Positions 6,561 through 59,850 of a stretch of DNA of 64,000 nucleotides are shown piece by piece. A model generated the notes under the pieces. It saw only the letters and a program-made list of their open reading frames with translations. It was not told the origin of the DNA and ran no database searches. The DNA lies in the NCBI GenBank assembly GCA_903813345.2, contig CAIIXF020000002.1, forward strand, positions 224,001 to 288,000. The letters run 5' to 3'. Source of the stretch: Owenia fusiformis. Its lineage: Eukaryota > Annelida > Polychaeta > Sabellida > Oweniidae. The position numbers and the translations under genes were made by a program. Every line of letters starts with the position of its first letter. Within the stretch, counting starts at the first letter, position 1.

Positions 6561-7600
6561 AATTTTGCCGATTCAATCTGACGGAGAATGCCGAGCCTCT
6601 ATTTTTGACCAATTAGAGACGTCCTCTTCACATTCGTGGTATCCTCGGCCAACTTCGTTTGCAGAGAAAAGCTTCGGCAATCTCCGGCTTTTCTTGAGGT
6701 ATCTTCGGTTGATTGCCAAAAGTCGACACCCCATTGCATATATAGTAAAAAGTTCTCCTCAACTTTGATATCCGTCAGCCAAGTCTTACTTGACGAACGC
6801 CAACGCTGGTCATATGAACAATGGGTCAAGCCAGCAATGTCACCATTTCCCTAAGTGACAGTGACAAAAAATGAAAGGATTGCAAAATACTAAGATGTGC
6901 TCCATAAAACTTTAAGACCAATCATTCAAAGGAAATATAGATCGTCTCGCATAAAGTTGATTCGCAAGAATCTCCCAAATCAAATATCAAATAGCAGAAT
7001 GAGTCAACACATTTTATTGAATATCCATATTTGATGAATTACAGCTAACACCTCAAGTAGGCAAAAACAAATCCCTAATCTAGCCAATGATCGAGATATG
7101 GAGTGATCTGTCCCTGGAGATTTTGACAAATGATGAGATTTGCAAACTTCTGTGTTCGATTGATAAAAATATTGATTGATATTTGTAAGCCACTAAATTG
7201 TTTGGTATCATTGTTGAATACAAAATTCAATAAAGTGGAATAGCTAAACCACAGCTGTATTTATTTAAGGCTGAATGCTGTATTATATAATTAATCACGA
7301 TCATATGCTCGTGTTACTAATATAACATCGTAGTTGGTGTTAATTAGATAAATGCCACAAATTATACTCGTTGATCATCTACTTGAAATATTTGCCACCA
7401 TTGCCTGGCTCTCTAACTATATTTTCTTTAACGTAACCATTACAGATATTTTATTTGTCTCGAAGAAAAGCAAAAATGACCGTATTGAATTGATACGCGC
7501 TTTTCTCCAGATCTTACCAAGTATTTAGAATATTGTATTTTATAAGAAATGCTATACAATATTTAGATATTTGGAGGATTCCTTTTTTGGGATACAATAT
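6561..7600. other. AT-rich DNA, nothing recognised
   Basis: No gene or repeat could be supported. Confidence 0.4.
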
Positions 7601-35497: not shown

Positions 35498-38176
35498 GTG
35501 AGCACACCGATATTATTTGAACATTAAGAATACACTGAGCAATGTTTTAACATATCGTCTGTCAACACGTTCATTTGAAGTATGCACGGCACTGAGAGAG
35601 CACGTGCTCATGATTGTTAACGTGGTCACATCCTGCAATTTAATTGAACATCAGATAATTTGGGATCTCCGAATACGATAGAATATGAAAGAGTTATGGG
35701 ACCTACTCACGTCTTCTGCATTGGAGCTGATTTTTGCATCATAATAAATGAATTATTGTGCTATATCTGTATATATAATTTGAAGAGTCTACCCTATCCT
35801 TGTAAAAAGTTTTAGATAGAAACTTAACTTTAAAGTGCCCCCCCCCCACCTTAGAGCTTGTATGATTAACACTTTACACAGGGAAATAACAATTGACTGC
35901 TATTATGGTAAGGGGTTAAGAGTACTATTATGTCTATTCTTTGACCGTCACAAAAATGGATGTCGGGATATACAAGTGTCAAGACAGTTTCTGGTCCATC
36001 ACAGCTATTAATCCATGGTATGAAATCTCTAGGACGTCTAATAAAGGAGCTGGTAGCACACTATAGCGCAGCGATATTTGACCTAACATTAACGTACTCA
36101 CATATGTTCCCTTATAACCGTTTAATATGCTTCCGGCTTTAAGGCTGGATTTTGCCTGAATAAAATCATAATTTTTCCGAATTTAGAGTACACAATGTAA
36201 CAGAAAATAATACAAAATGATTTTAAATATATGATTTAGGTTTCTAAGCTATAAATTTGAGGTTCATTTTCTTATCAATACCAAAAAATTATGTAATCAG
36301 TGTATCGACATTTTGTATTGTTTCTCAGGTATTAATAAGATAAAATTTGCAAATGAATCACTTTTATATTAGAATGACAAATGCTTAAATTGTGCTAGTT
36401 TTTCGCAAAATGGGTCTCAATACGTTTTGAGACGGACTTTTATTCAGCGGTGAACATTATCAATAAAGGAGGGCATACTGCTCTTCCTTGACTAATTGGG
36501 ACTACAGCTAAAATTATATTTCTCGTAGTTAGATATAGCTCAGTTGCTTATAAAACAACGATCAAGACTTGGTCGAATTCATGAATAATTGAGAAAAATC
36601 GTTATCATTATCTTCCTAAAATCTGTATCCAGCGGTAAGGTCAAAGAAGAAACGACCATCAGAAAACTTGATGATAGCGCCTCGGAAGAATTGAAAGGCG
36701 TCGTTCGATTGCATATGACTCTAATTGATTATTACACATGCCCTTGGAATATACGAGCATTCCAATACCTCTGTAATATTTAATTAGATCTTACTTATTT
36801 GTTATTGTATTACGTTTTATAAAACATGAACAATTATTTGTTGTTAGACCCATTGCGATTATATGGAAAAATTCTGGTAATAAAGTGTTTTAAATGGCAA
36901 GAAAAATAATATGTTCCCAATCATAAATTACCTTAATATTCCACATGATTTTGTTGAATCGGCTTTGCTCATATTTGAAAAATCAAACAAAATCTGAAAA
37001 ATACACTTGCTAAATTACACTAATTAAACACCGACATCTACAGTATAGTATATTTTTACATCATGATAATTTCTTTGTTCGCATGCTTAGAATAACGGTC
37101 TGTGTCTTATAAAATGTATAAAAGTTCGAATCAAATTATTTAAGTTTTTTGACCCCTTGTGATGAAAGGCATTTTCGACCCGAAACCCGGAACTTTTTTC
37201 AGCAAATGGTATTTTAAAAGAATCAAGACATATACAGCTTCATATATAAATATTGCTTCAAATGTTGCTGCACTATAGTGTGCTACGGATGCCTCATATT
37301 CGGAAGTCATACCATGGACTATATCTCACACCACTTCATAATGGGATATAACTTGGAATCCCAAACACCCGGATGTATTATGTACAAATTGTTCGCCGTT
37401 ATGGATCTCTGTGCACGGTTCGAGAAATATGTTTGGAGACAAGGCAATTGAGCAAACCGTTGTTCCCGCTTCCAAATTAAGAGGAGACGCAAATGTTCCT
37501 TATGGGGATTTTAACATATCTTTTAAGCATTATATTCGTTTATATACCCGTACGAGAGCAAAATTATCAGAAACGATTGATCTCTTAATTATTAATCTTA
37601 ATAAAACATATATTTTTTCATTATATTCGTGCATAGCGTGAGGAAAACTTTGATTGAAAAGTGAGAAAATATTCCGAAAGATATGGCCAAGTGATCAGTT
37701 GCTAGTTTCCATATTAGAAAAAACAATTCCGTTCGACTTACAACACTTTCATGCCAATCTTACCGCACTACAAACTCCAATATCGATGCAACAACTGAAT
37801 AAAAGTACTCATCTTTAAATAACATTATATAGTTACGTTGAAACCCACATATGTACAACAGTTCACCAAAGGAGACGCTTCACTTTTATCTAGGTAAATC
37901 TGTTCAGTGGTTCGAAAGCAAATCTATTGTGCTCGTTTCCGAATTATGTTGTTCAATCTTTTATTGATTAAACTCGGTATATTGACTATTAAAGCAATGA
38001 CAAAGAATAATACTTCTGATGGTGTCATCGCTTTATATAGCGTGCTGGTGTAAAAACAAATTTGCGTAATTAGTTTGATTTAGAACTTCCAGGTCACGCA
38101 AATAGCTACGCGAAATGCATCGTGAGAATATATTGACCAATCAGATTTAGTTCCTTTTGAGTGCATATTTGCTCCA
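35498..38176. other. AT-rich DNA, one dispersed repeat copy
   Basis: Contains the second copy (35718-35850) of the repeat at 9136-9310, ending in a ten-base C run. Otherwise no gene or element is supported; the small frames at 36589-36783 and 37411-37641 lack any recognisable domain. Confidence 0.4.
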
Positions 38177-39772
38177 TAGGCCAAAATGCCCTAATACGTC
38201 ACTTCCGCTGAATAGAAAAAAGTAGTATTCAAAAATAAATGTAGTCCCAACACAATTGTGATCATGACGAGTCAGTAAGCTAGTATGTAGGCACATTTGT
38301 AATCTTTTTGCAATGACAACATGCCATTTCTTCTGAAAATGCGTTTATTTGGGTTATCTGAAGGAAAATTTCGAGTCAAGTGGCGTATTAATTTTGCCTT
38401 CATTTTTGTGAATTTCAATTTGTGTCTGCAGAGAGAGGGGGTAGTGTCACAATTGACCAATTATTTCAAAAAGTAGATGGTTGGCCCTTATTGAGTTTCG
38501 TGTCAAGATGTAGCTTAGACATAGCTTTAGAACCTCAGATAGGCCAGTGAGGCCACATAAATCCATAACTCGAGATAAAAAGTCAGGCGTTTGCCCTTTT
38601 GCCCATTGACTAGTATGGTGACGTGAATTAGGGCAGTTTTGCCTATTAGTCACATGTGAAAGTGACCAAAATTTTTTAAAACTACTCAGAATCACCCAGA
38701 ATTGAAGTTTATTAGTGTGAAACATATTTTGGACGGAGGCAAAAAGGGGAATTTTCATGAACAAATTTAATGTTTTTGCTGAATCAGCAGTTTTCGCTTT
38801 TTACCCAAAAAACCACTAATTTGGACGATATTTGGCTACAATTTTGTCCTTAGTGACCCCTAAATGTCATATGTTGTCGTAAATGGGGAAGCCAACGAGT
38901 TGCTATTCATAATAAAGATTGAATTTTCCATCTTATGGTTTCCAGTATAGAAAGAAGGTACATATCGGGGGTGCAGTCAGAAATTGGTGAGTTAAGTGTC
39001 AATTTTTGATGTATTTGTTCACTCTGAATGACTACATTCAAGCTAAAAAATATCTCAAAAGTCCCAATTCTCTAGGCCAGAGTCAAAACTGATCAAATTT
39101 GTCATCATTTTTCAAATCAGGAGGTTGTTGAATGGAATAAAGTATGAAAAAGTGATGATTTTAGTAAGATTTTGCCAAAAAGTAGGCCAAATTTGTCCAA
39201 TTTTCTGGTTCACGGTTCAGTGATTTTGGCTAAAAATCGCAATATGCAATAAAATACCCAATTTCTTGACACGATAATGAAAAATGTCACCATCAGGCAG
39301 TGGATTTCATGATGTAAATGAAAAACTAGTCAAATTTAAAGGAAAACCATTGGGTTCTTGGAAAAATGACCCCAGGGGTAATGAAGTAGCCATATTTTTC
39401 TTAATTGCTGTCAGAATATTCTTAAACTGCACAAAACTACTTGAAAAACTCTAGTAAATTGGAAAAACGCAATTTAAAGCCAGAAATCATCCAACCATGT
39501 GGCTATTAGGCCAAAATGCCCTAATACGTCACTTCCGCTGAATAGAAAAAAGTAGTATTCAAAAATAAATGTAGTCCCAACACAATTGTGATCATGACGA
39601 GTCAGTAAGCTAGTATGTAGGCACATTTGTAATCTTTTTGCAATGACAACATGCCATTTCTTCTGAAAATGCGTTTATTTGGGTTATCTGAAGGAAAATT
39701 TCGAGTCAAGTGGCGTATTAATTTTGCCTTCATTTTTGTGAATTTCAATTTGTGTCTGCAGAGAGAGGGGGT
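38177..39772 (+). repeat. 1330-bp direct tandem duplication (1.2 copies visible here)
   Basis: A 266-bp block at 38177-38442 is repeated base for base at 39507-39772, 1330 bp downstream, with 1064 bp between. The ends are not TG...CA and no open frame lies inside, so it reads as a tandem duplication and not as LTRs. The second monomer is interrupted after its first 266 bp by the unit at 39773-55886 and resumes at 55887. Confidence 0.85.
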
Positions 39773-40256
39773 CACTGCATCAAATGTGGAATTTCTAGTA
39801 ATTTCTAGACGTGCTTAGTCGGTCTAGGAACTCCGTGTATCTAGAGATTTCTAGGCGTGCTTAGACGTGCTTAGAGCTGGCGTGGACAGAGCGTGACTAG
39901 AGTCTAGAAATCTCTAAGCACGCCGTGGTTAGACACAAGACAAAATTAGTCGTTATTAAATTGCCATGTGAGATTTTGCGCTGTATATGGAAACATTTAA
40001 ATTATAATTTACCGCATGTGTTAATATTTCGTGTTTTGCTTGAGCTAAATACGGGATATCAAATCAAAAAGAGTATGTTTTCACTTTATATCCGACTTGA
40101 GTCACGAAAAGTACATCGCAACATGGCTTTTTAATTGTTTACTTGTTATAAATTAAGAGGGTCTGTTTAAATGGGTATTTCCACTAATCAACACCCATTA
40201 TTTCGCATTGACAAGTACCAGGGCCGAATCCAGCATTTGCTAAGGGGATGACTTTT

Positions 40257-40540
40257 GAATTATTCCAGGGGTGAGGTCACATTTGATATTTGCTAAAAAA
40301 TTACACGAAAACTGCTCAAAATGGTGAAAGAATTATTGGCCATGGGATACAGTATTATTTTAAACTAGACATCTCTATCGGCGAGGGGGGGGGCTAACTT
40401 ATTCCAGGGGTGGGGTCACATTTGATATTTGTTCAAAAATCACACGAAAACTGCTCAAAATGGTGAAAGAATAATTGGCCGGTGGATGCAGTATTATTTT
40501 TAACAATACATTACTGTCGGCGAAGGGGAGGGGGCTAACA
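40257..40540 (+). repeat. Tandem duplication of about 140 bp
   Basis: Two copies of a block containing TATTCCAGGGGTG(A/G)GGTCAC, ACTGCTCAAAATGGTGAAAG and GGCGA(G/A)GGGG stand in direct order. Related fragments (CTGCTCAACATGGTGAAA and relatives) recur near 42110 and 53905. Confidence 0.75.
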
Positions 40541-42423
40541 TATAGTTGAAATTACAGAATACGCTACCTTAATTTTTGATGATCTATAAACATAATCTTG
40601 TCATAAACAACTACTGATTTATATATGTGAACGGATATTTGTAAATTTGGTTTAAAAAAGAAACTGAATATAGGGTAAAATGAGGGAGACACAGACGTCG
40701 GAAGAGTGTGGATAAAATCTAATCAACACTAAGCTGAGACAGAATGAGAATCATATGTCTGGACTCACAAGATTTTCATAAACATATTTGTTGATTGCTC
40801 ACGAAAACAAAAACAAATTTCAGGGTTTATTGGCATCACACAATATTTGCAAAATGGGGGAGTGCATTTTCCCAGGATTTAAAAAAATGCTTTACTTTAA
40901 ATGTCGCCCCTCATACTAGCATACGCTTTAACTATCAGATTCAGTAGCACCCTGCCCTTGATATATTAATACATAGTTTTCTTGTACTCCTTTTCAAAAA
41001 TACAACGAACTAAATACATAGTAATAATGATCTTGGAATTGATTTCTTAGATCTGTAATCTAGATCACACAATAACTAATTAACTGTCACAACGAGAAAC
41101 ACTATATAATAAACATCAATACGACGAGATAATAGATTTATTATCCAAATTGAATAATAAATGATAAGATCGGGTACTGTTGAATAATATTCTGCCCGGG
41201 ATTTGTTATTAATCATATAGAAATGTCTTATCCGAACAGCTTACATGTACGTATTATCCGTTGCGGCCATTAACAATTTTACATATCTAATAAGCTAAGT
41301 AAATAAACATGCGTCGACACAGTCGCAGTTGACTATGAAAAGTTCAATCATCAATCTTATTTTTATTTTCTTGATTTATTGTGTTTAAAAAAGAAAATGT
41401 TTGATTTTTAAGTTCAACCTTTAATTCTTATTATCAAGAACGCGCATGCAAATTTGCCAACCATGTACATTGTTTGCAGTCTGCGCAATTTAATGTAAAT
41501 CATTGTACATTTTTCGATATACTGTAATACTATTCATTATTTGTAAAATTGAACCGAATATAATCTAAAATTAATCAGCTTTAAATACAATGATTACATG
41601 TCATAAAAGTTGCCTTAAAACAATACAATTCGTGCGTTTGTAAATGCTCTAAAGCCCCGCTAGTATATGAACGAATCCTAAATAGAAATGAGTAAAATTC
41701 GTTCCCATTAGTGTGTACACGTTCTACACCGAGACTTCTCCTTTAAATCAAATCAGTCCACTAGTATGAGTTAAGAATGGACAGAGGGACGGATGGCTTC
41801 ATTCAATGGGATAATTAAGATATTTCAAAACCAGTGTCATTCTTCTATGCATACATCACTCCAATCATAACATAAAACAAGCTGTTTATTTTAAAACTAT
41901 TCTTTACGAATTGATGATAAGTGTATAATGTTCAATCATACAAATCGCAGTCAGTGATTGTTCTCCACACTCACCCCTCCCCCTTCCTGACATGAACTAT
42001 TTTGTAAAACCATTGACAGTGTGGAAAGGATTCTTACACTCGAGTGTCAAGGGGGGGGGGCAGTTACAGAAATATACAAGGCGATGGTTCAAATTGGACA
42101 ATTTTCAAAACTGCTCAACATGGTGAAAACTTCACTTTTTTAAAGAATGCTTGCCCGGCGAGTGGTTTGCTCTGTATTGCGAGAGAACAAAAACTTTGAG
42201 TTAGGATTTTTCCTAATACTATCATTAATCTTAACAACTTTTTAAACCGTCTCTGACTTCATATCATGCCAATTAATACCATTATTGTGTTGACAGGATT
42301 AAATATGATATCTATGGAATTATAATTTAATGAACTCAATAGTCTAAATGATAATAAGTTCATAATTTAGTCTTGGCTGACTAGTCTTGCTTCATCAGAG
42401 TTGGATTGCAAATACCTCCCTAA

Positions 42424-42718
42424 ATCAAATATTTAAAATTTACAAATTTACTAGTGTACGGGTTGGGGAAACAAGTCTCCATCCAACCACTAAAGTTTAA
42501 AAGGAAGACTATAGTGTCCCGTGAATTCATTATAATTATCTTAGACAATAGTGAAGCGGTACAATCCTTGGAGTGTTAATTACTCGGAATGCAAGTTTGA
42601 TTTAAAATAACTCATTTGGATCAAATATTTAAATTCTACTAGAATGCGGGGAGTAGAAACAAGTCTCCATTCAAGCACTAAATATCAAAAGAAAGATTTC
42701 AGTACCCCTTAACTTCAC
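42424..42718 (+). repeat. Diverged tandem duplication, period about 197 bp
   Basis: TCAAATATTTAAA and AACAAGTCTCCAT(C/T)CAA occur in order in both copies (about 42424-42530 and 42621-42718), with further partial matches. Confidence 0.6.
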
Positions 42719-44139
42719 TCCCGGACTTCACTATTCACCACCACCCCTCCCCTTCCCCAAGTATCCCTTATGACCCCAGAATGTTCGTTTCTGTGCCCCC
42801 CCCTGTCCATGGCCAGTAAGTAATCTATGTGTATATTGGCTCCCTCCCAAAGGTGGGAAAACCAGATGCAGGCATAGACATTGACAAGGTAAGGGGATTT
42901 AAATATAAAAATAGTCTTGTTTTTGGCTCCGACTTATATATTTTGGCACTGTTTAACGGAGCCGGTTTAAGGAATGAGAGGCAGAAATAATTCCTAGAAA
43001 TAAGACGGCCTCATCGCGATAGCCGCGACCCCTTTGTCTTTATCCTTCCACAATCGGCAGATAAGAGTGGCTCTGGCATACCAGAATGAGATGGCCTGTC
43101 TTTACTGTAATCAAGATATGGTACCTAACCGCAGTTATTTTGGTTTTATAACGGGGATATTGCTCGACCTTGAATAACAAATAAAAGGCATGTTCTTATT
43201 TCTGTATTTGACCTTTGATTGTGTATTAAGTTGAGCTGCATGCCAAACGTTAAGATTGTTAAAACGCTTAAAATAAAACTTTATTCCTCTCAATTTACAT
43301 AAAAATGAAACCGATTAGATTCGAATCTCAGTCACACCAGCACCACTGGTCAAAGGAAGTACAAATATCTATATTTTTAATCAAATGTCTGGGAATTTGA
43401 TAACTGTCTGGGATCCAATGTTAATTTTATTGAAGCAAACTAAGAAAAGTATAAAGATGAATTTTAAACGTTTAGAGGGAAAAGTCAAATATGCATTGTA
43501 ACCCTAAAAATAATTCATTAAAGTGTCGTACACATTTTATAACATTTATGTAAATAAAACAAATAAAGCACAACCCTAATGCCCTATAATGAATTCATAT
43601 CGGCGCTAAACGGCCCTTGCAATAAAAACGCATCGAAGCAGGGAATGCTTGGAAAATTCTTCCGAGACTGACTTTTGTTATTTCAAAATTGAAATATGCC
43701 TAATTCCTATGAACACGCGATCTTTTTCCCTGGGTTTTACTCTATTTTAGATTTACTAGAAAAATGTTCATATGATGATTGCGTTTGCTTCTCACGAGTT
43801 CATTGAAACGTTCAGTCGTAAAACTTTAGAGATCAAAAGACTAATTAGGCACCTGATTGCGAAAGTTTGATTGCATTTCGATCGCCGGGATTTTACAAAC
43901 GTATTGTTTAAGTAGCGATCGTGTTCTTGGGATCTTGATAACTTCCTATTTTAAGTTTTGGGTTGAAAGCAATGAGTATGTCGGACTTTCTCAAGTCCAC
44001 ATAATGAAACAATAACCCTTTATATTAGTCCAATCGGAATTTGCATAAGCATACCAGTTTCATATTGCAAAAAGAACTGTAATTAATAGCCTACATAAAA
44101 GCATCATGATAAATAAAACATTAAAGCATATATAAAGCC

Positions 44140-44192
44140 TATCGTTATCGCACCCCCCCCCCCCCCCCCCCCCCTCCTGGCTACGCCTATGG
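44140..44192. mobile_element. Half copy of a GGCGTAGCC-type MITE
   Basis: A C run of more than 20 bases is followed by TCCTGGCTACGCCTATGG, matching the right end of the full copy at 47762-47999. The left end is not found. Confidence 0.45.
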
Positions 44193-44879
44193 ATATTTTG
44201 GCAACTTTCACGTTTACCCCGCCCCCTAATAATTCTTGCGCCCCCTCTAAATATCAGACCCGTCAGGCGTTGAGGCATGGATCAGGATACCCTGACTCCC
44301 AAGCTGTGCGACTTCTGGCAACCGCTACACCTATATTCCCGGGGAAAACGCTTTTAGAAAAATTGTCAAATATGGTCGTGTGTGGGCAAACACGGAGGAG
44401 GAGGAGAGGGGTGCGTGCATTGTGTGCGACCCTTCATCAGTTGTGTACCTTATTTTTTGTATGAATTTCTTCCGAATAGTTATGCTAGAGGGGTTCTGAT
44501 ATTTATTTCTGTTTTCAAATGAAATAATTTCACCCTTGCCCGACTGACTTGTAGATAATGCACGAATCAAATAGCATGGAGATCAGATAATCAGGTTGAT
44601 TCGTATTTTCGCAATCAGATGAATTAACTTATTGTTTTCTCTGATTAAAAAGCGGTTTGGAGCTACTTTTACAGGATTTGTAAATTCGCAATCAGACTGG
44701 CTTATTTTAATATTTAGTCAGTGAAAGAGGAGGGGACTATAATGTAGAAAATTGTTTTGATTTCGACACTAACTGAATAATTTATCACAATTGTTAAATA
44801 AGCAAACAGAAACAGGTTTAAAAATGAGAATAGAGGCAAAAAAGTCTATACATAAAATGTAATTAAAACCCGGGAATTT

Positions 44880-46030
44880 AAAGCAATTTTAGACTGTTAG
44901 ATGATCTCTTCTGTAATCAAGGTGATGTTGGTACACTTCCGCCGTTAGAAAAACAAAGACTAACACCCCAGTCACATTTGTCGCACGGCGGCCGCAAGTC
45001 GACCGCAGAACAATTAAATCGGTGAATTTCTGCGGCGAGCGTAGAAAAACTACGCTCGCCTTGCGGCCTCCGTACGGCGAATGCAGATTTTTACAGGCCG
45101 CAGGGAAGGCGTAGAAATTATAACTCGGAGTTATAATAATTGTTCATTTCTGAGGTCCCCGTAAAAAGCAACTGGCTCAACAAGATTGAATCATTATTTG
45201 TCAATGTTTCACGATCACTTTTATTTGATATTACATCCTAGCACTATGAATAACATTTATAAATTGTCCTGATGTAAATAAAATGAAAAAAGTATTATTT
45301 ATCAACAGAAATTTAAAATTCACCGTGCGGCTGCCGTGGGAAATGTGACTGCAAAAGTATGAGAGCGCAGAAATTCTGCGGCGAGCGTAGAAAAGCAACT
45401 GGCCGCAGAAATGATAGACCGCACGGCGGCCGCAGGAAATGTGACTGGGGTGTTAGACAAAGACTACATAGCAATTAATCCTTTTGTAATCATTAAATGT
45501 TAGATTCTTATTATTTTGTTGGACAATGTTCAGACTTCTGACCAAGATTAAATCATTTATGTTTGTATTTAAAAAATAGTATTTCAATCAGACAGACGTT
45601 CTAATGAGTTAGAAAAATACACTTGTCCATTTCCTCTCAAGAAGTTTTCAAAGGTAATCAAGTCGATTTGTTTGAGTGTTTAGCATTGTTTTTCATAACT
45701 TGAGGCTTCCATGAACAGAATGACTTTGAAATGAGTTTTTATAATTTTAGCTTTTATACGGACATGCTTATTGTATATTTCTATATGAACGTTGTGGTTA
45801 TGTGATGTAACATCGCCCCCCCCCCAAATTACAGGTATACAAATTTTGGTCGGAATGCATTAACTTGCAATTAAAAGCAATTTTAGACTGTTAGATGATC
45901 TCTTATGTAATCTAGGTGATGTTGGTACACTTCCGCATTTAAGAAAACAAAGACTAAAACAAAGAGAACTAAGCAATTAATCCTTTTGTTATCATTAAAT
46001 GTTAGATTCTTATTTTTTTATTGGACAATA
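44880..46030 (+). repeat. Duplicated 155-bp segment, one copy holding a MITE
   Basis: The block from AGCAATTTTAGACTGTTAGA to TTAAATGTTAGATTCTTATT occurs at 44880-44962 plus 45454-45528, and again uninterrupted at 45875-46020. The first copy is split by the MITE at 44963-45453, so the second serves as an empty site. Confidence 0.8.
44963..45453. mobile_element. 491-bp GC-rich MITE with TA target duplication
   Basis: Ends ACACCCCAGTCACATTT and AAATGTGACTGGGGTGT are inverted copies, followed inwards by GCACGGCGGCCGCA-type blocks; TA flanks both sides. Comparison with the empty copy at about 45952 fits insertion at TA. It is markedly GC-rich at both ends with internal hairpins (GGCGAGCGTAG pairs with CTACGCTCGCC). 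Confidence 0.8.
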
Positions 46031-46322
46031 TTAAGACTTCTGTCTCCGATTGTTATGCAGCTATGTGTATAAAATCATGTGAACAACATTATCGTGGAAA
46101 CTCCCATATTCATTCTCATAATGTCTTACAGCTATTTCGCAAATGACATAATCCTAAACAACATATGGACATAATATTGCAGAACTGAGCGAAAAGAAAG
46201 GTGGAACAAATCAGATTAAGATATTTTATTTTTGAAATGCACAAAGGGCAACAGTTGAAGAACAAAAGTTAAAGGCGTTGTGAAATAGATCGTGCTTTTA
46301 TATGATTCCCTTTTATAGTGCC

Positions 46323-46407
46323 CTACCCTTTGCATTTGTTCGACTTCACTTCTTAAATGAGAGTTTCGTCTTCTCGTAGTTTATAATTAGACTCTGCACG
46401 CAGCGTA
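46323..46407. mobile_element. 85-bp hAT-like mini-MITE, copy 1
   Basis: Starts CTACCCTTTGCATTTGTT and ends CTCTGCACGCAGCGTA. It is flanked by a perfect 8-bp duplication ATAGTGCC (46315-46322 and 46408-46415), the size typical of hAT transposases. Non-coding. Confidence 0.82.
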
Positions 46408-46465
46408 ATAGTGCCCCTATTATCCATGTTCATGTTCTTATTCGATTTTTCATCAGTTATGACTT

Positions 46466-46593
46466 GGTAACATTTGCTCAGATTTTCATCACGGCGCCCG
46501 GCCGATTGAGTATTTTGTTCAGAATTGAATACAATTTTGAACAAAATACTCATCGGCCGGGCGCCGGTGCTGAAAATCTGAGCAAATGTGACC
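46466..46593. mobile_element. 128-bp foldback MITE
   Basis: Arms of about 57 bp pair almost completely: CATTTGCTCAGATTTTCA, CGGCGCCCGGCCGA and GAGTATTTTGTTCA on the left mirror the right side. The loop is about 12 bp. The same short peptide frame appears on both strands because of the symmetry and is not a gene. Confidence 0.8.
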
Positions 46594-47440
46594 ACAGCAT
46601 TATAAAAGCATACTCTTTAATACACGAACAGATTCAAAATGAGACTTTATCTATCAGAGAAATAAAATGGAAAATTTGTATTATGAAAATATTAACTGAT
46701 GCATTGTTTAGTATTAAATATTAAGTTTTACAGTCGGAAACCTCAAGGGGCGGGAAATTTGATTAAACAAAACGCCGGATTAATATGTGGACAACTTGCA
46801 AATGAAATGTAAGTAACATGACAGAACGAGTATGTACGCCCAATAAATACTTTTATAGTTTTAATTTGCATTCAAAGGACCCCGTTTGTAAAATTGATAG
46901 AAATGAATAGTTTTACTACCGGAAAAAAAACTGAGAAATATCTACCCGATTCGACAGAATAGTCATCATCATATCAGTGCGAAAAATTAGCTATATATAT
47001 TTTCTATGCGATATACACCTGATATTGATAGCCTTCCACGATCATGGTCCGTTGACATCATCAACCTTGTGATTTGCCATAAGTGATTAACCAACATTTT
47101 TTGATTAAAAGTCGGGGTTGACGTTTCTTGACTTTTCACACTGACATCAAAACAAAACATAATGTGAAAATAAAAGGCATAAAATGGCCATTAAAAGTAC
47201 ATTTTTTAACAAAAGTATCAACTTATATTACACTGCACGCAAATACAAAGTGAAAAGAACGTCTTCCCGGAGATTGAAATACGGATCGGTAAGTCAACAA
47301 AACTATCTGTTAAATAAACAAGCTTAGCCTATGTCTGCGATTGTTTGTCTGAGTGGCCAGATGTTATCCGTTTCGGATAATAAATTTCTGAGAATACTAC
47401 TGATATCTAGAATACATCTTCCGTGATATTTTTCATAAAA

Positions 47441-47523
47441 CTACCCTTTGCATTTGTTTGACTTCACTTCTTAAAAGAGAGCTTCGTCTTAGTGTAGTTT
47501 AACCAGACTCTTCACGCAGGGTA
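47441..47523. mobile_element. 83-bp hAT-like mini-MITE, copy 2
   Basis: Starts CTACCCTTTGCATTTGTTTG and ends CTTCACGCAGGGTA. It is flanked by the perfect 8-bp duplication TCATAAAA (47433-47440 and 47524-47531). About 85-90% like copies 1 and 3 by eye. Confidence 0.84.
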
Positions 47524-47761
47524 TCATAAAACAGGCATCTTAGCTGCAATTTTGAATAATAGCGTAATTCATAGCACAATATAAATTAACCCGCCTCTGT
47601 TTAATTCAAATATGCATTACCCTTAAGATTTATATACTTAGACACCTTTTCATTCTTGATTCGAATTTTTATCTTGTCTTCATCTAAATTTGTGGATTAA
47701 TAACAGTTTTTAGTATACAAATTGAACATACAAAATGTAGCGTATTGATTACACGTTACAG

Positions 47762-47999
47762 TGGCGTAGCCAGCTTTCAGTCGGGGGAGGGGGGGGGGTG
47801 CGATCGTGGCATAAAAAATGTTTTTGAAGATTTGTTTTGAATTTTACAAAAATTGGTGCAACTTCGTTCAAAATCGAGCTAGAAGCTTCAAATAAAAAGC
47901 ATTTTATGACTTTTTTCTTCTATCTAATGGTTCTATTTTCATTGGTTATGGAGGGGGGGGAGGTGCGATCGCACACATCACATCCCCCTGGCTACGCCT
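47762..47999. mobile_element. GGCGTAGCC-ended MITE, full copy
   Basis: TGGCGTAGCCAG at the left and CTGGCTACGCC at the right are inverted. Just inside each end lie a long G run and GTGCGATCG. The interior includes TTTTACAAAAATTGG and TTCTTCTATCTAATGGTTCT. Relatives or parts lie at 44140, 50443, 53529 and 55093. Confidence 0.7.
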
Positions 48000-49394
48000 A
48001 TGCGCTATATTAATATAACAAGGTTATCATATCATGCCATTAGTTAGATGGTTAACTAATATTAACACAAAATAATAATACACGATAATTAAAAAAATAA
48101 ACCTCGGTATTCGGGCCTAAAATCCAAGGATACGTGTACCATTACTTAAGTGTAAGCTGCAATACCATATCGAATACCTGTACCATTACTCAATAATAAG
48201 CACTAGTAAGACCATAATAACAAGCTTAATAACTAGCTTATCGCAAGTTATTCCATACGATTTTGTCTTGTGTGTTTGATTGCGTTTTTGCTTCTTCAAA
48301 GACGGGATATCCCAAAATTACCTTGATTACAGCATTGGCTTTCAAGAGAGTCCATGATTGCAGTCTACATGGTCTATAGGCTATTTTTAATTCCTCGTTA
48401 TTTTAGTTGTGTATCTTTGAATCTGATTATCATATACAATTTACTTTAACCAATTTTACCCGTTTTTTGAACTTCAAAACTGTCACATACATATTGGGTG
48501 TCCCTAATCATAATAGGACCAATAACAAATAACATAATTAAAACTGGAAAACATACAATACAGTCATATTCATCATATCTCATCAATTTCTCCGGTTTGT
48601 ATCTCCCGGTAATCTTTATGCCTTGAGCCACCCCCCCCTTACAGATACTTTAGATACACTTATTTTGACGCTACTTAATTTGACGAATTTGCTCAATTTC
48701 AAATATTGGCGGCTATTTAATTTGGCGGAATCAGGACTGTTTAATTTTTGTCTATGTTTATGCATGGGCTATCAAAAGATTCTCTTGAAAGCCCATGGTT
48801 TATGTCATTAGGACGGGTATTTACTAAGATATTTTCTGTATTTCTTTTGGGATAATGTATGACATGTTGATGACATGCTCAGTTGACAGGAAAAGGGGCC
48901 CCACAAGTTTAATTTCTGAAGTGCATTTGACAAAAATTCCAAACTGAAATTTGACGGATTTTAATTTGGCGGATTTTCTGACTCCGTCAATCCGTCTAAT
49001 TAAAACGGGAGCCAAATTAAGAATCTTCAGTTATATCAATATTATTTTGTATCTATCTGACATTATAATTTCGAAGAGAGATTCTCCTGGCCGGGGACAT
49101 TCGGGATTTCGAACATAATAAACTTAATTTGAAATTGAATCTGAAATTCTGTCAGAATGGAATACATGGACCTGGTTACATGGTTTATCTTATTCTAAAT
49201 GGACAAATAAGATCGCAGGGGCAGGAAACTCCCCCGTAGTTGACATTTTGTTCATATAAAAGGCATTTGCATTAATCCTTTTGATAACTTTCTTTCGTAG
49301 TTGGTCTCTTGACCCGAAACATTCTGGCTACAACAATACAATTGAGTTTTAGAGAAAAAATTGTGACTAACCGCCCTAAGAAGAACGTTGGAGC

Positions 49395-49705
49395 TTTTAA
49401 AGACCACATTAAGCCCCTACTTTAACTAACATCCTAACCCATGTTAAAGCCAAGCTTTTCCAGGATATCTTCAATCAATCCTCAACCCCTGTTAAAGACC
49501 CATTTTACAGGGTGTCTACACCGGGGCCTACCCCCTTGACCCTCGTTAAAATCCTACTTTTGAAGGTAACATACCCCTTCAACCTCCCTTCAAAACCCTA
49601 CTTGTACAGGGTACCTCATCCTAAATCCCATGTTAAAGCCCTTATATTTGCCGGGTACATACACACCCCCCTCCCTCTCAAGCCGTACTTTTGCTGTTCC
49701 CCAAA
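49395..49705 (+). repeat. Degenerate minisatellite, about seven 45-52 bp units
   Basis: Units share TTAAAGCCCTACTTTT, then CAGGGTA(C/T) and a CCC-rich tail ending ATG or CTG. They have diverged well beyond simple slippage, so the array is old. Open frames in it reflect the low stop content of the C-rich unit. Confidence 0.65.
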
Positions 49706-50442
49706 GCTGAATTCATTTGTGAACTATTATTTTGCTATAATGAATCCTGGTGGATGTGATATCTGTAAAATATACAAAATGTACATTATATATGCGGTCT
49801 GGGGTGTGAGGGGGTTCACTTTAAAAAAAATTTCAGTGGGGGGGGGGTCTCACTCACAATGTAAATATACAATTTACAATTCAATACATAATTTGCACGA
49901 GTCTTAGGTTTGAATGAATTAAAATGACGTAAGCTAAGTGTAAAATTTTTGAAAAAAGCCTATCAAAAGACGAATTGTTTTTTGAAAACCTTGCGAGGAA
50001 ATCAATATTGATGTACCGTATTGAAGTCATAAACAACAGCTTCGAGATGTCAGTCCGAAGACTATCTCCCGGTTGTCATGTTTATCTAGGAAACTGGTGG
50101 TTGTAATCATAATGATAATAGGACACACGGCAAAAAATGTGTATCAAAATCCGTTGAAACCTGCTTACAGGTAATACATTTGTATTATCAAAAATACAAT
50201 CTTGTTCTGACCATCGTGAATCCTGAACATTCCAAAAAGGGCATATTTTGTATTCACCTTGTAACTGTTTAACTGTGTCTAGGTGATCTTCAGTCATTGA
50301 CAGTTGTAGAGACTAGTTGCAACTTTAAAAAGAAAAAAAATTAAAAAGAAAAAAGACACTAGTTGCAACTGGTGATGTTTTCCATGGAAAGCCGTGAGCA
50401 CGCTTTGCAAACTATCTCTGGACTCTCTCTCTCTCTGGACGG

Positions 50443-50680
50443 CAGAGGTGGGGGGGGGGTTGCGACGAGTGCGAAGGCACCCCCCCCCCCAAAAAAAAAA
50501 GCTTATAAAAACATAACCATTAGATAGAAGAAATAAGCTTTCAATTTTTTTATTTGAAGTTTTAATCTCATTTTTGAAGAATTTTGAAAGATGCATCAAT
50601 TTTTGTAAAATTCAAAATAAATCTTAACATTTTTTGGGCTCGCTTAATAAGTTATGCCACGATCGCACATCATGACATCT
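50443..50680. mobile_element. Decayed relative of the GGCGTAGCC MITE
   Basis: Flanked by G and C runs, with the shared interior words GATGCATCAATTTTTGTAAA and TTCAAAATAAATCTTA and a terminal CCACGATCGCAC. Clear terminal repeats are lost. Confidence 0.45.
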
Positions 50681-51528
50681 TATTTCTTCTCAGTCCTGAG
50701 ATGATGTTTCAGGTTAAACAGAAAGATGCTATGAGTATCAGAATGGGATCGCACCACATGGGGAGTAGTTTCCAGAAAGATTAGAATAGGGTGAATGTGG
50801 TAGCCTTGCCCAAGTCGTATCTTTTTCCTATCTTGATTTCTATTATTCAGATAAGTAAAAAGCTCTTTGAAAGTGTTCAAAAAATGATGAAAACTGCATG
50901 TGATTGAAATTTTGGCCAGTAAGAGTTCCAGCCCCCCCCCATCTACCCTTGGCTTTTACCATGGACATGGAGGAAATTTAGGAGTCATTTTCAAATGCCC
51001 GATTACAAGATTACAGTGATTTATTTCCGCCCGATAACAGTGTTGTTGGTGGGCAGAGGAAATCGAGTATGTATTGATCTAGTTAATTAGTGATTACAGA
51101 TAGATTAAAGGAAAAGTGACTTGAAAGTGAATTCTCAAAATCGAGAATTCTGATTGTAATCAAAACTATATGAATTGATACTAATCGCATGGACATGGAC
51201 TAGTATTTTGAATCATTTCATATCCTATCCAACAGCAAGTGAAATCAAATGATCAAGCTACATTATTTATTGAAACTTAAATAAGGGAAATATTTTTTTA
51301 CCTTTTATGTTAGTCTCAGATGTTGCTTGCAATTTTTTTGAGTTTTTGAGGCGTACTTATGGCCACTTGTGTAATCATTAGAGTTTTTAGTCATTGAGGT
51401 ACATTCTAAAATTGTCTCTGTTTATCAGGTTTAGATTGGTCATTTTGACTATATATAATTGTTAAGTTTTAAGCGCAGTTTTGGTCTATATGCTTATAAT
51501 AGAAAACTTTAAGATGATTTGGTCTACG

Positions 51529-51611
51529 CTACTCTTTGCATTCGTTTGACTTGTAACTTCTTAAAAGAGAGCTTCGTCTTCGTAGTTTAACTAGACTCTG
51601 CACGCAGGGTA
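51529..51611. mobile_element. 83-bp hAT-like mini-MITE, copy 3
   Basis: Starts CTACTCTTTGCATTCG and ends CTCTGCACGCAGGGTA. It is flanked by the perfect 8-bp duplication GGTCTACG (51521-51528 and 51612-51619). Confidence 0.84.
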
Positions 51612-52230
51612 GGTCTACGCCATAACAAAACCTTTAAAAAGAGGCATACTATTGGTCTAGACCTGAGAGTAAGGCGTATTAGAGGTATACTTTAAGTTCA
51701 AAATCCTATCAAAACGTAATTTGAATAAATGAACGTTTTATCCTCTTTATGGAACATTAGACCTTAATAACTCAGTTACCATATTCGGGTGGGGTACATC
51801 TTTTACTTTTTACATTTTATATTGATCATATTTTTGCAAAGTCCGATTACTGGTACAGAGAAATAGAGCCCAATCTAGAAAATAAAAGATGGAATCATAA
51901 CCCCCCCCCCCATACATTCACTATAATTAAGTCGTTGGTGAGTTCGGATGTTTTTCAAGTTTAGGTTTAAAAAGTACTTTTATGTAGATATATATCTCCG
52001 ATATCTATACATTTCCTGTAAGAATGTTGCAACGAAAATGGGGCAACAAGACCTGGGCCTAATGCATTTCTAGTTATCTGTTTTCCTGGTTTGTTTGACA
52101 CAGAGACATGTTTGAAGTGGGTAAACATTGCAATCGGTATGTTTCAAGGAGGCCTCGGGGGGAATGACGACCCATGAAACCTAGAACCTAGAAAATCATG
52201 TTTATAAATTATAGACCAAGATATAATATT

Positions 52231-52393
52231 TTCAGGCCCGTAGCCAGGATTTACCAGGGGAGCGGTTTTACCATGGGGGGGGGGAGGGTTGCCAAGGGAG
52301 TGGGTGAGGGGGCTTTTGACAGTTTTGGCAAACATCATTTGGCCAGGAGGGGGAGCGTTCGCTCCCTCCGCTACCCTTGGCTACGGGCCTGAA
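52231..52393. mobile_element. 163-bp MITE with TTCAGGCCCGTAGCC ends
   Basis: TTCAGGCCCGTAGCCAGG at the left and CTTGGCTACGGGCCTGAA at the right are inverted. The interior contains a G run and no coding frame. The ends resemble, but are distinct from, the GGCGTAGCC family. Confidence 0.75.
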
Positions 52394-53528
52394 TTTGGAA
52401 AGCAGCTAAAAGGTCGTCGTTTTGTGAAGAGGGGATGGGTGATTAGAAGTCGAACGAATGCAAGGGTAGCCATAGACCATAATGTAATTATGCTAAATCA
52501 TGTCATCTTATACATTGGTACACTTACAAAATAAGGAAATAAATTGTTCAATCAATCACATTACTTTTTGCTATCATCTAATGACGCTACAGAACAAAAT
52601 AATACATTTGTCTCTGGAATTACTGGAAGTTTTAATAACATGTACAATTTCCTGGGAACGATAGATGTATGTGCAATGTCCGAATAAATGATTGTGGTAA
52701 AGATTGCGATTTGCTAGATTCTGATTTTGGAATTTCTTTGATCAAATTGTACCTCACACGCAATGTCAGAAGTGAGATTGAATGTCCAAATAGCATAGTA
52801 AGAGCCCGACTAAGATTCATATCTTAAAATCTAAAGTCGAGTTTAGTCAGAGATTATAATTTCATTGGTAAAATGCAATCAGAAAGAACCTTTAGTAATA
52901 GTTGTTTTATTTTAATGAGAGATTGATAAATTGGAACTAAAGTTGTAGCCACCATTTCCAAATCACAACCACAGTCTATTTTTAATTAAAACTCTTTCCC
53001 TATCCTATAATGAAAATAAATATAATTGGAGTGAATTGCATGCATTTCGAATGAAGTTATCATATTTTTAGTATTTTATTAGTTCAAACAGGTTAACATA
53101 AGATGCATAAATGTGACAAAGGGAAACATTTCCATTTCTAACTCTACAATTGTAATCATACATGTACATACCAGACACATGTATACATGTGCATCATCAG
53201 GATCTTCACTGGACATTATAAACATGAGCGAATAGGGAAGGGGGGGGGGACTTGGATTACGTCCTTTAGAATGCAGGTTTAGAAAACTGCAATAGATGCC
53301 ATTTTTCATGATAGGGGGGTTATGAAGGAGCTTGTTCGTGAACGTGCAGAATTATGGTCCTCTTGGAAAGGGATTTTTGTTATGCTTTGAATGGAACAAG
53401 TTTGAAGAAAAACGGTGCAGTATGAGACTCGTAATCCTTGATTTTCAAACATCCGATAGGCCAAAAATTAACGGTCGAAGTTAACACCGCGTGTTAATGT
53501 CCTGTTTAGAAAACAATAGGCGTTACCA

Positions 53529-53771
53529 AGTGGGGGGGGGTAGGATGGGTGCTATAACCAATAAAAAATAGAACCATGAGACAGAAGAAGAAAAGGGTAA
53601 AATGTTTTTTATTTTGAGCCTCTAGGTCAATTTTGAAAGAAGTTGCATCAATATTTGTAAAATTCAAAATAAATTTATTGGTCTGTTTTAGCCACAATGG
53701 TACCCCCCTGACTGATAACCGAAATTCGTTTGGGCATCACCCCCCCCCCCCCCCGACTGAAAACTGGCATG
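53529..53771. mobile_element. Relative of the GGCGTAGCC MITE
   Basis: Bounded by an eight-base G run and a 15-base C run, with shared interior words (AACCATGAGA, TTGTAAAATTCAAAATAAAT, ACTGAAAACTGG). Terminal repeats are worn. Confidence 0.5.
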
Positions 53772-54984
53772 ATTGTACCTTTTGAGATTCGATCAACTTG
53801 AGTTCTTCTGGGAAAATGAGGAGTCTTCAATGGTGCATCGACATAACATGGACTGGTGAAATACATGATGGTATCCCGATCATTGGAATGGTTAATGGTG
53901 TATTTGAAAAGTGCTCACAATGGTGAAAAGCTGCACGCTTTAGAAAGATCTAGACTTTTTGGCCGGGGGGGGGGGACTTTCACCAACCCTTCCAAAGGGA
54001 CACGATATATTTCTCGAGGGCTCAGAGGGCCAGAGGTTAATATCATGTTGTCACAGGGTATAAAACCATAGGCCATATTCAATTCCGATCATGATATTCC
54101 TAACTCTCTTCAATGAAATCTGAAGTTCGAAGTCCATATCTAAACTTTGTATGATGAAACAAAACCAGAAGTCTTATATCATAAGTCTACAAAATATCCG
54201 ATGGCTTAAAATGACATTTTGAAATATAAAATTTTATTGAATAATATAAGCACACCAGCATAAAAAAATCAACGAAACAATATATCAGCGACCAAACAAA
54301 ATCGCTTGTTGCCCAGATGTCTATGACTTTAACTGTGTGAGAGCATGATGATGATATTACCATTCGTCTGTGTTTAATAGGCTCAAACAGAGCTTCATAC
54401 TCCTTTCGTTTCAAAATCTCTTAATTTTCAAATGGGAGACGAATTCAATTTTTGTTAGCAAGTTTTGAGGTGAATGCGATTTTTATGAGAGAGATTGGTC
54501 AGGACAATGCGATTTTCTTTTCGAGCGATGGACGATGGGCGGTAAACACAATATTGCGTCTTCATTACGTACCCCTTCCATTAGATTGGCAATCGTGTGT
54601 TTTCATTTCGAAGCATATCAATATTTAAATCTAATTATTTCCTCAATTGCAATGCTAGATCTAGTAGTTCAGTTATTTGTGATATTTGACGAATTTATCT
54701 AAATCGCCAATCATAATCAGGCTTTGATTAGATAGGTGGCCGAAAAAGGGATCCTGTTACTAATTTTATGGAGGGGGGGGGGTGTATGTAATATCGACCA
54801 ACGTCCAAACAATTATTTCCTGCACTATAGGAGAAAGTACTCTTTAAAAAGGGTTTCAAAAAACTATTTTGAATCATCGTTCTGTAATTGTGCAAAGGAG
54901 TTTTTGTTTTTAGCGTAACGTACACTGTATTTTAATTCTTGTTTGCTTAATAAGATTAATTTCAATATGAATCGCAAGTATGAT

Positions 54985-55886
54985 CACTGCATCAAATGTG
55001 GAATTTCTTGCAATTTCTAGACGTAGGATGGTCTAGAAACTCCACGTATCTACCGGGAGAGGCAACTTAAATGAATATGCCAATTGCGTCCATAGGCGAA
55101 GCAAGGGGGGGGGGTGCAATAAAGATAAAACCATGAGAAAGAAAAAGCTCAATTTTGAAGAAATTTTTGTAAAATTCAAAATAAATCTTATTTTTATGGC
55201 TTGTTTATGCAACAATCGCAACCCCGTGACTGAAAACCGAAAAGGTTTTGGCGATCGCACCCCCCCCCCATCCTGAATGAAAGCTGGCTTCGCCCCTGCC
55301 CTATATCAATTAGTTATGATACATTGCATACACAATATGAACACATAGTTTTTTCATCCATTTGGTCAGACGCACAATAATGATACTATTCTAGTCTCTT
55401 GCTTGATACCCAGGGTTTGATGTAACAACTTGAAAATTATTTTTACAAGTTATCAGTACAGCTTGTTTGGTATTTTACAAGCTTTAAACAGTACGTGATT
55501 TATTATTCAATCATATATGTAAAACGTCATGTGAACAGTTCGTTATACAAAATAATAAATAAAATAGATAAAAGATAAAAAGAAATTAGTATATTTCAGT
55601 GAAAATATGTCTAAATTATGAATGTTGATCATAATTGCTTATAACAATATACATTCACCTGATTCGATAATTACTTCATTCTATTTAGTCTCAAGGCGTG
55701 CCAAGACTTTTCGTCACACTCTAAGCACGTCTTTGCACTGCGTGTGCTTAGACGTGCCTAGAGATGTCTAGAGTTGGTTTCATCGCGTACCTAGACGTGT
55801 CAAAACTAGTCACGCCTAAGCACCCGGCGTGCTTAGACTTAGTTTCTAGACGTGCTTAGTCTAGAAATTCCATTTTTCACGCAGTG
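54985..55886. mobile_element. Second CACTG end: 0.9-kb CACTA-like copy inside the composite unit
   Basis: CACTGCATCAAATGTGGAAT recurs at 54985, followed by TTTCTAGACGT and TCTAGAAACTCC. Together with the end at 55886 it forms a small CACTA-like copy with subterminal repeats at 55683-55870. Its left flank (GAT) does not match the right flank (GGT), so this copy did not insert here alone. Confidence 0.6.
55093..55297. mobile_element. GGCGTAGCC-type MITE nested in the CACTA copy
   Basis: TAGGCGAAGC at the left and GGCTTCGCC at the right are inverted variants of the family ends. G and C runs lie just inside, and AAACCATGAGA and TTGTAAAATTCAAAATAAAT are shared with the copy at 53529. Confidence 0.6.
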
Positions 55887-56089
55887 GGTAGTGTCACAAT
55901 TGACCAATTATTTCAAAAAGTAGATGGTTGGCCCTTATTGAGTTTCGTGTCAAGATGTAGCTTAGACATAGCTTTAGAACCTCAGATAGGCCAGTGAGGC
56001 CACATAAATCCATAACTCGAGATAAAAAGTCAGGCGTTTGCCCTTTTGCCCATTGACTAGTATGGTGACGTGAATTAGGGCAGTTTTGC
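55887..56089 (+). repeat. Resumed 1330-bp monomer, first 200 bp of its interior
   Basis: Identical to 38440-38642, starting at the GGT target duplication. It ends at 56089, where sequence unlike the monomer begins. Confidence 0.85.
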
Positions 56090-56291
56090 CATATTTGCGA
56101 ACGTTCCGATTCAAAAAGGGAACTGCGAAATGGACTGCGAAGTGGTGCGCGTTTAAATAGTCCACGTCCGTTGTGTAAGAATCGTGGTGCGAGTGCAAGG
56201 AACGTAGTTCGCGGTATCAGAACTGATGTTCGCGTTGTTGATAGCAAAGGGGGCCTGAAGAATGGCAGTGACTTTGTGTTTTAACTTGCAG

Positions 56292-59505: not shown

Positions 59506-59850
59506 ATTTCGGAATATTGGGGACAATTTTATACTCCATTGGGAGTATTTTTAATCTACTTCTTATTACGAAGATTCCCGAACCTTGTTCGGATTAATCC
59601 GGATTTTCTGACCTACTTCATCTACCGAGATTTAACGAGTTTACATTCGGCTCATTTCGGAATCCTGGTGACAATTTTATACTCCATTGGAGTATTTTTG
59701 ATCTACTTCTTATGACGAAGATTTCCGAACCTTGTTCGGATTAATCCGGATTTTCTGACCTACTTCATCTACCGAGATTTAACGAGTTTACATTCGTCTC
59801 ATTTCGGAATCCTGGTGACAATTTTATACTCCATTGGAGTATTTTTGATC
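59506..59850 (+). repeat. 148-bp tandem repeat, about 2.3 copies
   Basis: Units start near 59506, 59654 and 59801, with ATTTCGGAAT, GACAATTTTATACTCCATTG and CCGAACCTTGTTCGGATTAA. The last two are almost identical. The unit length is not a multiple of three and the frame changes from copy to copy, so the open frame across it is not a gene. Confidence 0.85.

Follow-up and report, generated by a model that had tools for sequence, protein, structure and literature searches.

A long non-autonomous CACTA-type transposon inserted in a composite repeat of Owenia fusiformis

The window analysed here, a stretch of 64,000 nucleotides from contig CAIIXF020000002.1 of the annelid Owenia fusiformis (assembly GCA_903813345.2, forward-strand positions 224,001 to 288,000), contains a 16,114-bp unit bounded by CACTG...CAGTG ends. 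The unit interrupts the second of two sequences (R1 and R2) that resemble miniature inverted-repeat transposable elements (MITEs) and are separated by a middle segment (M), and it is itself interrupted by a second transposon (Table 1). We are highly confident that it belongs to a family of long non-autonomous CACTA-type elements, termed here family A, and that this copy is inserted in R2 of a dispersed R-M-R element and has a member of a second transposon family nested in it.

Table 1. Features of the locus, with positions in the window
Feature	Position	Strand	Remarks
CACTA-type non-autonomous transposon	39773..55886	+	Bounded by CACTG...CAGTG; interior in the same order in 12 of 13 copies from elsewhere
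Left target site duplication GGT	39770..39772		
Right target site duplication GGT	55887..55889		
Left end (LE), subterminal GTGCTTAG/CTAAGCAC repeats	39773..39921	+	Motif positions
Right end (RE, type A), subterminal repeats	55721..55886	+	Motif positions
Internal left-type end (LE')	54985..55052	+	83% identical to LE over 71 bp; 14 of 14 copies
Spacer between E04 junction point and LE'	53928..54984	+	
Nested second transposon, 7,185 bp, CACAA...TTGTG	41088..48272	+	Empty site in other copies; flanks, ends; ends recur genome-wide
TGT target duplication of nested element	41085-41087, 48273-48275		
Host, first 465-bp MITE-like copy (R1)	38179..38643	+	
Host, 865-bp middle (M)	38644..39508	+	
Host, second MITE-like copy (R2), first part	39509..39772	+	Interrupted by CACTA element
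Host, remainder of R2	55890..56090	+	
Host target duplication ATA, left	38176..38178		
Host target duplication ATA, right	56091..56093		

The 16-kb unit and its relatives in the genome

A reading of the sequence alone had placed a CACTG end, a CAGTG end and flanking GGT triplets at the borders of the unit, and all of these proved exact to the base. The terminal 23 bp of the two ends match in inverted orientation at 18 of 23 positions. CACTA/En-Spm transposons are characterised by CACT(A/G) inverted ends, a 3-bp target duplication and subterminal repeats. The subterminal motif copies that had been noticed at both ends are accounted for by GTGCTTAG/CTAAGCAC, which in the window unit are restricted to the outer ~150 bp on the left and ~170 bp on the right, and the same motifs are confined to both ends in the three copies of the family in which they were counted.

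In the 498-Mb genome the subterminal 14-mer CTAGACGTGCTTAG is found at 116 places and the reversed control at one, an excess far above chance, and among the first 100 of the 116 places it often lies in same-strand pairs 8-22 kb apart; copies E01-E13 are 13 of the 27 pairs chosen from these 100 places. With the window included, 13 of 14 copies exhibit CACTG...CAGTG ends flanked by an identical 3 bp of their own, the exception being E13, which has lost its outermost left bases. Together with the subterminal motifs, this upholds the attribution of the unit to the CACTA/EnSpm type. The duplicated triplets (GGT in the window; GGA, ATG, TAT, TGA, AAA, GCT, ACG, CTA, AAA, CGA, TTG and ATA in the others) have no fixed sequence, eleven being distinct and AAA occurring twice. 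The interior is colinear with that of the window copy in 12 of the 13 others, with blocks longer than 150 bp at about 72-99% identity, and the nearest sampled relative, E06, shows 96 mismatches over 8,172 aligned bases. Because these copies have the interior in common, in the same order, the greater part of what lies between the ends is family sequence and no cargo picked up by chance. Family A is present in dozens of copies in the genome, and no gene was found in the window copy.

The unit measures 16.1 kb instead of about 9 kb because the second transposon is nested in it: 8,926 bp are left after subtraction of this element and of one TGT, and the shorter sampled copies of family A measure about 8.5-11 kb. 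The nested element starts CACAACGAG and finishes TCTTGTG. At the identical base, 11 of the 13 other copies have an empty site, with one TGT against two in the window (E04 and E13 are not scorable), and E06 is among the 11. In the searches with its two ends, 40 of 181 left candidates and 40 of 2,325 right candidates were scored, which gives at least 40 matches to each end. Among those scored, 30 of the 39 other left-end matches start within 1 bp of the position equivalent to 41088, 35 of the 39 other right-end matches stop within 2 bp of that equivalent to 48272, and about 20 end pairs, counted by eye, lie on one strand 5.6-9 kb apart; a 5-kb interior query returned 135 matches. The nested element is a member of a second dispersed family with CACTA-like ends, whose 3-bp duplication is known from this one case. 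The left arm of the 16-kb unit also contains a 139-bp tandem pair, 87% alike, at 40260-40543.

Open reading frames of at least 130 amino acids are few in the 14 elements and do not exceed 171 amino acids, barring a 1,226-residue frame in E08 (L020, 3728-7405) with RVT_1 (E = 7.4e-34) and endonuclease domains, which is a nested retroelement resembling a long interspersed nuclear element. Five of the 28 window reading frames were scanned against Pfam and gave no match, and Rfam gave 0 matches. The domain PF02992 (Transposase_21) has 14 genomic matches, none of them on the window contig C2 and hence none in the window; by eye, none of these places is near the listed motif places. Nine of the PF02992 loci have equal scores (L030-L032 and six more places) and a 608-residue open frame with Transposase_21. 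Two of the PF02992 stretches, when compared, were 99.99% identical over 7.5 kb, which makes the nine-place group probably a very young family. The right end of this near-identical pair reads ...CGCCGGGG and not CAGTG, the left end lying outside the stretch seen.

Some of these results weigh against the assignment of the unit to family A as formulated above. An autonomous partner with the same ends was not found among the 14 PF02992 places, of which one pair was examined with its flanks; the comparison relies on 13 of 27 chosen end pairs; and E04 matches the window solely in its outer left part and in its right 2 kb.

The internal left end and the differing right arms

A left-type end 0.9 kb inside the right end had already been recognised by the sequence-only reading, and it does start at 54985. 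All 14 copies contain this LE', at a distance of 825-1018 bp from their right ends (902 bp in the window), and it is thus a fixed feature of the family that gives no sign of a recent composite event at this locus. The places scored with the 901-bp query from LE' to the right end (40 of 1,459 candidates) were compared by eye with those scored with the preceding 1,058 bp (40 of 240): at most of the former the spacer adjoins LE', and at a few it is 2-13 kb away, for example C2:19336779, C10:16933460, C11:8384663 and C6:21930435. A stand-alone small element running from LE' to the right end was not found among the 40 of 1,459 scored places: at C509, C9:3504979 and C10:30432284, where no spacer match was listed, part of the spacer was seen on reading to precede LE' directly. 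At L038 (G000:C9:3504700-3509700) a family A right end and its flank are duplicated in tandem; the right-end pair C9:3504979/3509420 was considered as a composite and rejected, being a tandem copy with the same flank.

These observations bear on the origin first proposed for the unit, namely a recent composite in which the outer ends of two small CACTA copies were used and ~15 kb of unrelated, old, repeat-laden DNA was carried between them. The position of LE' close to the right end invites such a view, as does the identity of the two host R copies, which makes host and insertion look young. However, 12 of the 13 other copies, at other sites and with target duplications of their own, have this interior between these outer ends, LE' is found in all 13, and the three places that might have represented a small stand-alone copy carry part of the spacer. 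The supposed cargo consists of the family's own interior and of one nested 7.2-kb transposon, and not of DNA foreign to any family as a macrotransposon would enclose. We consider a recent composite very improbable. In the insertion of a family A copy, which is the reading we retain, a transposase of CACTA type made elsewhere would have recognised the subterminal repeats of both outer ends, mobilised the element and inserted it at a staggered cut of 3 bp, while the internal left-type end would have been carried along unused; the nested element would have entered the window lineage after its split from E06.

A second right-end type, with the exact sequence GGAATTCCATTTTTCACGCAGTG, occurs at 21 places and marks a family B. 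Four of its elements (B1-B4, at L033-L036) are 5.4-7.2 kb long and are flanked by duplications of AAT, AGT, TAC and ATA. With the nested element excluded, the window left arm is matched to about 4.3 kb by B3 and B4 and to about 3.3 kb by B1 and B2, the main blocks being 85-98% identical. With the window right arm, B has the final 200 bp in common (76%), to which an 80-bp repeat is added in B1 and B3. Family B is a sister family that combines the left arm of family A with a different right arm and lacks an internal left end. The relative age of A and B was addressed by two trees, which are weak or root-dependent. The ends were also counted in a census that drew on the first 100 entries of each list, out of 297 left ends and 189 right ends, and from which the left ends C3:1263519, C3:1573199 and C3:7127117 and the right ends of neither type A nor type B were left out. 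Against the resulting incomplete list of left ends, a left end lies within 1.2 kb of 25 of the 42 type A right ends and an outer left end within 25 kb of 30, 12 being without one; for family B, a left end of the same type is listed within 25 kb in 19 of 21 cases and within 1.2 kb in none. Variable internal tandem repeats, visible as many shifted self-type matches, are present in B2-B4.

The copy that departs from the others, E04 (L014, G000:C2:13359200-13369190), has a diverged left end, a right end of type A and a flanking TGA duplication. It contains a complete inner right end at element position 7349, followed directly by the segment that leads to LE' in the other A copies, and has kept the two inner ends of the elements joined in it (positions 7282-7349 and 8378). 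In a tree of the left-arm segment E04 is distant from all others, and the right-arm tree places it with E01, E02, E07 and E13 (support 88, midpoint root). Its inner junction is unique genome-wide at up to 2 mismatches, and L042 has a right arm 78% like that of the left element of E04, with a different flank. E04 is probably a macrotransposon, in which two elements moved as one. A less likely origin is that a family A copy recombined with a diverged element nested in it, by deletion between the two left ends. Such recombination would likewise have preserved the outer TGA duplication, and the left end of E04, compared per 50 bp, is indeed nearer to the other copies at its tip (92-99% over the first 200 bp) than inward (about 54-88% over positions 201-600). 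But the other copies are also more alike near the tip, dropping from 99% to 76% among themselves, and the first 100 bp of E04 are already at 92-94% against 98-99% within A, so that an A-like tip that gives way abruptly to diverged sequence is not seen.

Two accounts of how LE' reached the right arm of family A deserve to be weighed. In the first, an element would have contributed its left end, and a small LE'-RE element (~0.9 kb) close to it or nested in it the right end, and the two would have moved once as a macrotransposon, the founder from which at least 30 copies would derive. This is a serious possibility, although we stop a little short of considering it probable. It would explain why a CACTG-type left end occupies a fixed place in 14 of 14 copies and is consistent with the exchangeable right arms, B having the left arm of A to about 3.3-4.3 kb; moreover, the structure it predicts, with both inner ends retained, is that of E04. 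On the other hand, an inner right end was found in no A copy other than E04, by BLAST in 13 copies or by motif in 4, no stand-alone LE'-RE copy was found at the places scored, and LE' could be an inward copy. The last point is the substance of the second account, according to which the right arm received an internal copy of the left end, through gap repair or template switching, and a composite never formed. The restriction of the LE'-LE similarity to about 71 bp speaks for it, as does that same lack of an inner right end in A outside E04. Yet LE' starts exactly at CACTG and the sequence that precedes it is unlike the outer flanks, as expected of a true terminus, and we regard internal copying as conceivable but rather doubtful.

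The R-M-R element as host

The flanks of the unit had been described as rejoining without loss into a 1,330-bp monomer whose other copy is identical, in a young tandem duplication. The rejoining holds: minus one GGT, the joined flanks agree with the other copy of the repeat at every one of 467 bases, and one clean insertion, younger than its host, is confirmed. The duplication does not hold, nor does the two-copy monomer: 467 bp are repeated at a spacing of 1,330 bp, and this arrangement is dispersed genome-wide in the form of an R-M-R element that occupies a minimum of 14 loci (14 of 402 candidates were scored), two of which are one unit longer. The element and its other forms were read at L043-L050 and L053-L059, and in the window the host with its target duplications spans 38176-56093.

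Without its insert the host measures 1,795 bp (R 465, M 865, R 465), the two R copies of the window being identical, and R has inverted ends GGCCAAAATGCCC...GGGCAGTTTTGCC. An exact 3-bp duplication surrounds the whole composite in eight of nine copies, that is the window and 7 of the 8 others, the exception being L043, with a flanking duplication of 2 or 4 bp (TATA). One locus, L048, reads R-M-R-M-R. Among five candidate single R copies, three are single with a matching 3 bp (ATA, TTA, TAC) and two adjoin M in longer units. An array on C8 (G000:C8:34746457-34788860) contains 25 R copies in 42 kb, 17 of the 24 spacings being 1,326-1,329 bp; since M continues beyond both outermost R copies, the array is longer than the matches indicate.

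Within one element the R copies differ, in nine copies, at 0, 1, 0, 0, 0, 2, 0, 0 and 0 of the 465 bases (0 in each of three comparisons for L048), and between elements at 0-7. Variants private to an element are common to its R copies, except for one base in L043 and two in L047. The two R end copies thus give no sign of independent histories, and their near-identity and joint private variants indicate that they were homogenised or copied from one template. The cut-and-paste movement of two independent MITEs would not yield such identity, which might rather stem from excision from homogenised arrays, circle copying or gene conversion; we tentatively favour the arrays. Near-identity of this kind resembles that of long terminal repeats (LTRs), and an LTR retrotransposon was considered as the host; it was rejected, the repeats ending in GGCCAAAATGCCC/GGGCAGTTTTGCC with a 3-bp duplication and neither a primer-binding site nor a purine tract being seen by eye.

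The R-M-R host is the real composite at this locus. The idea of a macrotransposon, which fails for the 16-kb unit as a recent event, fits the R-M-R host and E04 and perhaps the founder of family A. We tentatively propose, while leaning slightly to the side of doubt, that LE' is the fossil of a founding macrotransposition, that the free pairing of ends would also have made family B, E04 and the R-M-R host, and that the formation of composites would be a repeated route to new families.

Relation to known systems

The 16-kb insertion is an ordinary one, a long CACTA element with no detected gene and another transposon nested in it. It has in common with non-autonomous CACTA/En-Spm members the CACTG...CAGTG ends, the 3-bp duplication, the subterminal repeats and the many dispersed copies; family A differs by a fixed second left end in the right arm, and no transposase was seen. 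En/Spm families of 16-20 kb are mentioned for a red alga in PMC6431247, but with 4-5 open reading frames.

For the composites, a model is offered by the Ac macrotransposons of maize, in which, according to PMC9910405, foreign DNA is enclosed by Ac ends and is excised or reinserted with them as one unit; an 8-bp duplication is mentioned there. They belong to another superfamily, and the parallel concerns the R-M-R host and E04, the 16-kb unit not being such an event. In Anopheles gambiae, AgaP2-P12MITE has one end from each of two related subfamilies, and the authors mention, in PMC1562414, macrotransposition of two neighbouring copies followed by deletion between them as a possible origin; this is a short MITE of the P superfamily, whereas the elements considered here are long, of CACTA type, and of putative composite origin. 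The Xenopus repeats Xstir and miDNA4, MITE-related satellite arrays treated in a review (PMC12628747), resemble R in that a MITE occurs alone, in composites and in tandem arrays; in Xenopus the repeat unit is internal to the MITE or captured by it, whereas in Owenia complete MITE-like copies are separated by 865-bp stretches of other sequence. A CACTA family with a fixed internal end is not described in the passages covered of PMC9910405, PMC12628747, PMC1562414 and PMC6431247, a weak negative, as the subscription literature and the repeat databases lay mostly outside the search.

One genome presents a natural series of composite DNA transposons, from the single MITE to MITE-spacer-MITE, the triple form, the array and E04, and the target duplications make it possible to trace how ends of different copies were used. 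Elsewhere in the window, a 147-bp tandem repeat pair, 97% identical, is located at 59542-59835.

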